NCBI GenBank assembly: GCA_020630435.1
Contig: JAHDBJ010000008.1
Location: 60,641-124,640 of the forward strand
Direction of reading: 5' to 3'
From: Saprospiraceae bacterium
GTDB taxonomy: Bacteria > Bacteroidota > Bacteroidia > Chitinophagales > Saprospiraceae
DNA: 64,000 nt
Of the stretch, positions 17,304 through 18,678 are shown one piece after another (the stretch's first letter is position 1; every line of letters begins with the position of its first letter). The notes beneath the pieces were generated by a model, which was given only the letters and a program-made list of their open reading frames with translations, did not search any database and was not told the DNA's origin. The position numbers and the translations under genes are program-made.

Positions 17304-17945
17304 ATGGCAGCTATAAGGCTAGGCGATACCGCCCCTAATTTCACAGCCCAATCGACAGAAGGCAGTATCAATTTCCATGACTGGCTCGGAGAGAAATGGG
17401 GAATTTTATTTTCTCACCCTGCTGATTATACTCCTGTTTGCACAACAGAATTAGGTACTGTAGCAAAGTATAAAGACGAATTTGAAAAAAGAAATGTCAA
17501 AGTTGTTGCACTTAGTGTAGATGGATTAGATTCACATAATGGTTGGGTTAAAGATATTAACGAAACACAAAACACAACCGTCAATTTCCCGCTTATTGCA
17601 GATGAAGATAGAAAAGTTGCAGAACTCTATGATATGATTCATCCAAACTCAGATGATAAAATGACTGTTCGCTCTGTCTTTGTTATTGATCCAGACAAAA
17701 AAGTAAAATTAACGCTTACCTACCCAGCTTCAACTGGACGAAATTTTGATGAGTTACTTAGAGTTATTGATTCCCTTCAATTAACCGCTTATCATAAAGT
17801 AGCTACTCCAGCAAATTGGAACAATGGAGATCCTTGTGTAATTGCACCATCTATTACCAATGAGCAAATCCCCGATATGTTTCCTAAAGGACACAAAGAA
17901 ATTAAACCATACCTGAGACTTACTCCCCAACCCAATTTAGATTAA
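17304..17945 (+). CDS. 1-Cys peroxiredoxin (Prx6-like)
   Basis: A 213-residue peroxiredoxin that reduces hydrogen peroxide, alkyl hydroperoxides and possibly peroxynitrite. The peroxidatic cysteine is C46 in 'SHPADYTPVCTTELG', with the active-site H39 in the same loop as in Prx6. 'FPLIADEDRKVAELYDM' and 'VRSVFVIDPDKKVKLTLTYPASTGRNFDELLRVIDSLQ' are family landmarks, and the long C-terminal dimerisation region is complete. A second cysteine in 'NGDPCVIAPS' is in the usual variable tail. It stands alone, with a strong terminator after it. Confidence 0.95.
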   Translation: MAAIRLGDTAPNFTAQSTEGSINFHDWLGEKWGILFSHPADYTPVCTTELGTVAKYKDEFEKRNVKVVALSVDGLDSHNGWVKDINETQNTTVNFPLIADEDRKVAELYDMIHPNSDDKMTVRSVFVIDPDKKVKLTLTYPASTGRNFDELLRVIDSLQLTAYHKVATPANWNNGDPCVIAPSITNEQIPDMFPKGHKEIKPYLRLTPQPNLD

Positions 17946-18040: not shown

Positions 18041-18069
18041 TTGACATTTAAAAAAAATAATCGTAATAT
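18041..18069 (+). promoter_or_regulatory. Probable arsR promoter (TTGACA-N17-TAATAT)
   Basis: TTGACA at 18041-18046 and TAATAT at 18064-18069 have the classic 17-base spacer of sigma-70 promoters, rather than the TTTG/TAnnTTTG form seen elsewhere in this window. The -10 lies inside the operator palindrome. A start about 7 bases after it would leave only some 5 bases before the ATG at 18081. Confidence 0.5.
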
Positions 18070-18075
18070 TACGAT
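18060..18075. promoter_or_regulatory. Operator-like 16-bp perfect palindrome before arsR
   Basis: ATCGTAATATTACGAT is a perfect 16-bp palindrome ending 5 bp before the arsR start and covering the probable -10 element. ArsR/SmtB repressors bind imperfect 12-2-12-type palindromes overlapping promoters, so autorepression is the simple reading. A near-identical copy lies at 18409-18424. Confidence 0.65.
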
Positions 18076-18080
18076 AAGTT

Positions 18081-18389
18081 ATGGGAACAAGTAATACAGA
18101 AATATTTAGTGCGCATCAAAATCGTCTAGCAGAAATGGCAAAAGGATTAGCACATCCTGCTAGAATTGCGATACTCGAATATTTAATAAAAAAAGGTTCT
18201 TGTGTTTGTGGTGATATTGTCGATGAAATTCCTTTGGCTCAATCGACTATTTCACAACATCTAAAAGTTATGAAATCAGCAGGAGTTATTAAAGGCGAAG
18301 TAGATGGAGTATATCGTTGTTATTGTGTAGATACTCAAGCCTGTCAAGCACTAGTAGATATGTTTAAAAAAATGTTCAACTGTTGTTAA
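18081..18389 (+). CDS. ArsR/SmtB-family metalloregulator, Cys-rich
   Basis: A 102-residue winged-helix repressor of the ArsR/SmtB family. The helix-turn-helix reads 'DEIPLAQSTISQHLKVMKSAGVIKGEVDG' and the wing 'VYRCYCVD'. In place of the ELCVCDL motif of ArsR it has 'SCVCGDIV' with C41 and C43. More cysteines are C80, C82, C88 and the terminal pair C101/C102, so several thiolate sensor sites are possible (arsenite, cadmium, copper or another soft metal). The 16-bp palindrome directly upstream is the probable operator. The next gene, 74 bp downstream, encodes a tiny CC-rich peptide preceded by the same palindrome. Confidence 0.92.
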   Translation: MGTSNTEIFSAHQNRLAEMAKGLAHPARIAILEYLIKKGSCVCGDIVDEIPLAQSTISQHLKVMKSAGVIKGEVDGVYRCYCVDTQACQALVDMFKKMFNCC

Positions 18390-18408
18390 TATTTTTTTGC
18401 TCAAATTA

Positions 18409-18424
18409 ATCGTAATATTGCGAT
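18409..18424. promoter_or_regulatory. Second copy of the ArsR operator-like palindrome
   Basis: ATCGTAATATTGCGAT differs from the site before arsR at one of 16 bases and pairs at 7 of 8 positions. It lies 19 bp after the arsR stop and 39 bp before the CC-peptide start. It again contains TAATAT (18413-18418) at the same place in the palindrome, though with no clear -35 upstream. Confidence 0.6.
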
Positions 18425-18463
18425 TTAATAATATTATTTTTAAACTTTTAAATTTTATAAATT

Positions 18464-18562
18464 ATGAAAAATTATTTAATTGGAGCTACGCTATTGAGTT
18501 TTATTGGATTAACAGCATACATCTGTTGCGGAGGAGGGTGCTGCCCTGTAGGATGTTGCTAG
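18464..18562 (+). CDS. Membrane-anchored 32-residue peptide ending in CC-X3-CC-X3-CC
   Basis: This short frame opens at ATG 18464 and stops at TAG 18562. Residues 1-3 are polar and basic (MKN), residues 4-20 form one hydrophobic span, and the last 12 residues are CC-GGG-CC-PVG-CC: six cysteines as three pairs at exactly equal spacing. There is no clear lipobox, so a single-span membrane peptide with an exposed thiol tail is likeliest. I know no named family for it. It follows arsR by 74 bp and carries its own copy of the operator-like palindrome, which suggests ArsR-controlled metal binding, sensing or delivery. The call rests on composition and context; no homologue search was possible. Confidence 0.6.
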   Translation: MKNYLIGATLLSFIGLTAYICCGGGCCPVGCC

Positions 18563-18603: not shown

Positions 18604-18633
18604 ATCCCAAGCCTTTTAAGACGGGCTTGGGAT
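18604..18633 (-). terminator. Terminator downstream of the PorP/SprF gene
   Basis: A 10-bp perfect G+C-rich stem (18604-18613 with 18624-18633) with an A-run on the left, reading as a T-tract on the minus strand. It lies 46 bp after the porP-like stop. Confidence 0.85.
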
Positions 18634-18678
18634 CACCAAATACTACAGTCTATCATTTAAAATTGGCAATACAATTGT

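Follow-up and report, generated by a model that had tools for sequence, protein, structure and literature searches.

In the genome of a Saprospiraceae bacterium, a gene encoding a repressor of the ArsR type is followed by a very short frame whose product ends in three pairs of cysteines. Both lie on the forward strand of the stretch of DNA that was analysed (64,000 nucleotides, hereafter the window), between a peroxiredoxin gene (17304-17945), which is upstream of arsR and is ended by a terminator-like hairpin, and a PorP/SprF gene, which is downstream of the peptide and convergent on the arsR-peptide pair. The locus is composed of the following features:

18041..18080, plus strand: arsR promoter region, with operator 1, ATCGTAATATTACGAT, an exact palindrome at 18060-18075, and a TTGACA-like hexamer at 18041
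18081..18389, plus strand: arsR, encoding an ArArsR-type As(III)/MAs(III)-sensing repressor of 102 amino acids (Pfam HTH_5 and NCBIfam HTH_metalloreg; C41, C43, C80 and C82 plus a CC tail; tree)
18391..18463, plus strand: peptide promoter, TTTTTTG-N9-operator 2 (ATCGTAATATTGCGAT, 18409-18424), then a 39-bp leader
18464..18562, plus strand: Cys-pair micropeptide gene, 32 residues, a hydrophobic N-terminus and then CC-GGG-CC-PVG-CC (homologs and codon evidence)
18605..18634, no strand assigned: GC-rich inverted repeat with arms ATCCCAAGCC...GGCTTGGGAT, read directly, between the peptide and the convergent porP/sprF-like gene

The inverted repeat is possibly a terminator shared by the peptide and the porP/sprF-like gene; this reading is tentative because the terminator scan did not list that repeat. 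No gene for efflux, reduction or methylation adjoins arsR in the window, unlike in a classical ars operon. A first-pass annotation of this DNA had described an ArsR of 102 residues with seven cysteines (positions 41, 43, 80, 82, 88, 101 and 102) and a 32-codon frame that starts 74 bp past the end of arsR and carries the CC-GGG-CC-PVG-CC arrangement, and all of this is confirmed on the sequence. The product of the frame, MKNYLIGATLLSFIGLTAYICCGGGCCPVGCC, has six cysteines in total.

The micropeptide as a conserved gene of Saprospiraceae

Homologs were reached through the repressor, by fetching ArsR relatives first and then reading the frames downstream of them. A search of relatives with the single peptide sequence is too weak, and a degenerate DNA pattern for CC-X3-CC-X3-CC across the order is drowned by TGC/TGT-like triplet repeats in other frames. 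Each of the six closest ArsR relatives, which belong to the same family, is followed by a short frame with Cys pairs at its end. A profile built on six peptides gives about 20 strong matches in 398 Saprospiraceae genomes, nearly all of them 66-147 bp downstream of arsR. The 32-codon frame is a conserved gene of Saprospiraceae: homologous frames stand beside arsR in relatives and their Cys pairs are kept, the two points on which the first-pass annotation had made its proposal depend.

The N-terminus of about 30 relatives is hydrophobic, usually led by Lys and variable in sequence, and the C-terminus carries Cys pairs, mostly as CC-X3-CC-X3-CC. Only the Cys columns are invariant in the alignment, and the hydrophobic N-terminus varies freely. 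ArsR-controlled Cys-pair micropeptides that have no hydrophobic segment at all, e.g. MLHLMNAKANCCGGDDDCCGTGCC, are found after the operator in four relatives (L024 2049-2114, L228, L255 and L256), and for this reason the Cys pairs are considered the essential part. In L255 such a micropeptide is followed by DUF6428, both after the same promoter. The membrane anchor that had been proposed holds as a common property of the family and not as a universal one, the Cys pairs being its constant part.

The Cys codons are split almost evenly between TGT and TGC (72:69), and at the conserved Cys-pair codons the mean pairwise difference is 0, 0 and 0.45 at positions 1, 2 and 3, respectively (120 pairs). 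Since these codons change at the third base only, selection acts on the protein. This observation bears on a non-coding or leader role, in which the frame would be a cysteine-codon attenuator or the by-product of a regulatory RNA. Very short Cys-rich leader frames exist in other bacteria; however, here no conserved gene lies downstream, the next gene in the window is convergent, and a peptide that is found away from arsR (genome G415, see below) retains its operators. A leader peptide, which we consider very improbable, was rejected on the lack of a conserved downstream gene and on the third-base-only change of the Cys codons.

Searched against Pfam-A and NCBIfam with E up to 1, metallothionein families included, the peptide gives zero matches, in agreement with the first-pass annotation, which knew of no named family like it. 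The literature, which was partially covered, yielded no family name or publication for the peptide and nothing relevant on DUF6428, small Cys-rich arsenic proteins or ArsR in Saprospiraceae. In a sample of 395 genomes of the phylum, with few carrier genera, the profile matched only the genome to which the window belongs, so that at the sensitivity of the profile the peptide family looks confined to Saprospiraceae. A related-looking peptide, MKKTIIAFVTIAALGLAYVFCCPPDCCKTSTECKISATK, is present in another genome (G514, L213 4585-4704) with no arsR or operator nearby, and may be unrelated.

The repressor and its operators

The window ArsR matches Pfam HTH_5 (42.7 bits) and NCBIfam HTH_metalloreg (67.3 bits), both above the curated cut-offs. 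ArArsR, from Arsenicibacter rosenii (Bacteroidota), is a repressor sensing As(III) and methylarsenite in which Cys41, Cys80 and Cys82 are essential and the C-terminal CC is dispensable for sensing; its DNase I footprint covers TTTTATCGTAATATTGCGATCACAATC (PMC11868830). The three essential cysteines are at the same positions in the window ArsR, and C43 and the CC tail are also shared. Among the peptide-linked ArsRs the CxC motif is present in 20 of 21 and the CYC motif in 21 of 21, and all 21 fall in one clade (support 99/92, in a tree on few columns). Moreover, relatives of the window ArsR adjoin arsM (encoding arsenite methyltransferase), DUF6428, acr3, arsC-like genes or arsI. The metal sensed at the locus is thus very probably arsenic, and the soft metal of the first-pass annotation can be narrowed to trivalent arsenicals.

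A 16-bp palindrome, ATCGTAATATTRCGAT, precedes arsR and recurs ahead of the peptide. The copy at 18409-18424 is identical to the core of the ArArsR footprint, and that at 18060-18075 differs from it by one base. These two positions are the only ones at which exact ATCGYAATATTRCGAT occurs in the genome, where reversed-pattern controls give 0 matches; a one-mismatch operator at C18:62638 sits within a coding frame and was taken as chance. As to the earlier placement of the peptide behind arsR, the position is correct but the peptide is not a mere cistron after arsR, since it has a promoter-operator of its own (18391-18424).

The same sequence, ATCGYAATATTRCGAT, is present in every arsR-peptide gap examined, and in most it is at a fixed distance of 9 bp behind TTTTTTG. 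In most relatives (e.g. L022) the stretch between TTTTTTG and the operator contains a further short palindrome, GCTATAGC, also conserved, which the window lacks. Of the 21 operator-linked peptide genomes, 18 have the exact operator exactly twice (reversed control 0); two incomplete genomes have one site and G415 has three. In this last genome the peptide (L211 1940-2050) and arsR are on different contigs, and the peptide has kept two ATCGCAATATTGCGAT operators, the same variant that is found in the arsR-DUF6428 gap of that genome (L212).

A search for the promoter pattern that used no protein sequence found matches in 41 of 398 genomes. A Cys-pair peptide follows 29 of the 42 distinct promoter-operator sites, many of which are loci first found via the peptide, versus 0.31% of random positions, and on this comparison a chance frame is out. 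About 20 genomes were found by the promoter search alone; about half of them have the peptide, most others have DUF6428, and two have neither. L254 and L229, where the promoter-operator downstream of arsR leads into no Cys-pair peptide and no DUF6428 gene, are possibly decayed loci. Control of the peptide by arsenic is strongly supported by homology, and by analogy with the ArArsR orthologue the peptide would be induced by arsenic.

Cysteine tails and arsenic genes

Trivalent arsenic is classically bound by vicinal Cys pairs. One member of the peptide family (L230) contains CCPGCCAPGCC, which includes CCPGCC, the smallest motif that binds biarsenicals (PMC6273389). Similar endings are present in other proteins of the regulon: CC lies within the last 12 residues in 17 of 19 ArsM and 22 of 22 DUF6428 proteins versus 23 of 875 background ORFs, and 70 of 87 ArsRs end in CC versus 17 of 875. 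In Bacteroidota ars loci, ArsR, ArsM and DUF6428 have C-terminal Cys tails in common, CTPGGGCC being one example (ArsM/DUF6428 loci L026-L048 and L111-L144). Such tails need not be arsenic sensors, because in ArArsR the CC can be dispensed with for sensing (PMC11868830). The peptide is most likely a detached version of the Cys tail of ArsM, DUF6428 and ArsR.

The search for arsenic transporters and methyltransferases covered ACR3, ArsB and ArsM, and none of the three has a detectable match in the genome of the window. ACR3 is rarer with the peptide, being present in 1 of 21 peptide genomes versus 10 of 30 others (p = 0.017, uncorrected for relatedness). The genomes are probably mostly metagenome assemblies, and a missing gene counts only as far as the assembly is complete. 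ArsM matches in G542:C125, G588:C39 and G415:C80 each have one in-frame TAA, which may be a natural C-terminal stop. In some species the arsenic response under the repressor appears to consist of arsR and the peptide alone; the first idea of an entire response module holds for the window's own genome as far as tested, with the exact operator only at arsR and the peptide and with those three genes not found.

The shared tails are also in line with the peptide acting as a hand-over factor for arsenic, which would shuttle As(III)/MAs(III) among ArsR, enzymes and export; the CC tails of ArsM and DUF6428 may have a similar task. DUF6428 fills the promoter slot of the peptide in other genomes, and L255 has both after the slot, but the genome of the window has no detectable ArsM, ArsB or ACR3 to act as receivers, and we regard this role as unlikely.

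Proposed role of the peptide and known systems

Our favoured explanation, with a probability of about 0.6, is a minimal arsenic-response unit in which the peptide would be an arsenic-induced envelope thiolate trap for As(III)/MAs(III). Without arsenic, ArsR would occupy both operators, that of its own promoter and that of the micropeptide promoter; binding of As(III) or methylarsenite to C41/C80/C82 would release it, and ArsR and the peptide would then be made. The hydrophobic N-terminus would put the peptide into the inner membrane, or export it through that membrane, and the positive-inside rule would place its tail, with the three vicinal Cys pairs, on the periplasmic side. There the pairs would bind As(III)/MAs(III), with two or three thiolates per arsenic, as an envelope buffer or trap, and the peptide would be a membrane-tethered mini-metallothionein. 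We favour the trap because of the tail-like peptide, the chemistry of CC, the CCPGCC of L230, the lack of ACR3, ArsB and ArsM matches in the same genome and the rarity of ACR3 in peptide genomes; we infer arsenic binding, envelope location and protection from chemistry and context, and the thiolate site that was first proposed is an idea of the same kind. Against the trap, Cys pairs in the periplasm can become oxidised to disulfides, a form in which they would not bind arsenic, and the capacity of a trap without efflux is limited. An envelope role is not universal, because L024, L228, L255 and L256 have no membrane segment.

A variant that differs from the trap in topology is a lipoprotein or secreted hexacysteine peptide, with a cleaved signal and a mature form of about 12 residues that is lipid-anchored at the first Cys or released. 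Many members have A-x-A/S/T directly ahead of the first CC and about half of the relatives match the lipobox pattern, but the AYI-CC of the window fits neither the signal-cleavage nor the lipobox rule, no lipobox is present in the window sequence or in part of the family, and several members have no signal of any kind; this form is possible, though we would not expect it. Many known small membrane peptides regulate transporters, and the peptide could likewise control a membrane protein; it might, for instance, close an aquaglyceroporin through which As(III) enters, and its Cys pairs would then sense the arsenic. Control by ArsR would time such a regulator correctly; however, the hydrophobic segment is unconserved in sequence and absent in some members while the Cys pairs are constant, and no conserved partner gene adjoins the peptide, so that a regulatory role seems quite improbable.

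The envelope trap can be stated in its most complete form, which we put forward tentatively and at somewhat less than even odds: the sole target of the arsenic repressor besides arsR would be a membrane-tethered peptide with three Cys pairs, a naturally occurring equivalent of the biarsenical tag and a freestanding form of the Bacteroidota Cys-tail device, protecting by envelope trapping of As(III)/MAs(III) without efflux, reduction or methylation. The known bacterial arsenic resistance is made of these last three processes. Intracellular chelation is listed for eukaryotes in the ArArsR paper (PMC11868830). Chelation at the envelope by a conserved peptide of 32 residues, controlled by an arsenic-sensing repressor and present in genomes that lack the usual pumps, would be an addition to the bacterial processes. 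The peptide is small enough for synthesis, so that arsenic binding is directly testable, and biarsenical dye chemistry offers a ready assay. The locus also draws attention to the C-terminal Cys tail that ArsR, ArsM and DUF6428 have in common.

Four known systems can be compared with the locus. SmtB-SmtA is similar in having a metal-sensing repressor of the ArsR/SmtB superfamily beside one small Cys-rich protein, but SmtA is longer, cytosolic and binds Zn/Cd, and its repressor senses zinc; the window peptide has 32 mostly hydrophobic residues, only vicinal Cys pairs and an arsenic-sensing repressor, and matches no metallothionein family. The FlAsH tetracysteine tag CCPGCC likewise has two close vicinal Cys pairs, and the natural member L230 has exactly this motif; the tag was engineered for biarsenical dyes, whereas a third pair and a spacing of three residues are usual in the natural peptides. 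DUF6428 (PF20001) takes the same promoter-operator slot after arsR and has a Cys tail such as CTPGGGCC, but it is a protein of about 150 residues, and the micropeptide corresponds to the tail plus a hydrophobic N-terminus only. Finally, the ArArsR/arsRMC operon shares the repressor type (C41, C80, C82) and the footprinted 16-bp operator core (PMC11868830); there one operator serves the arsM and arsC operon, whereas here a second, separate promoter-operator drives the micropeptide.
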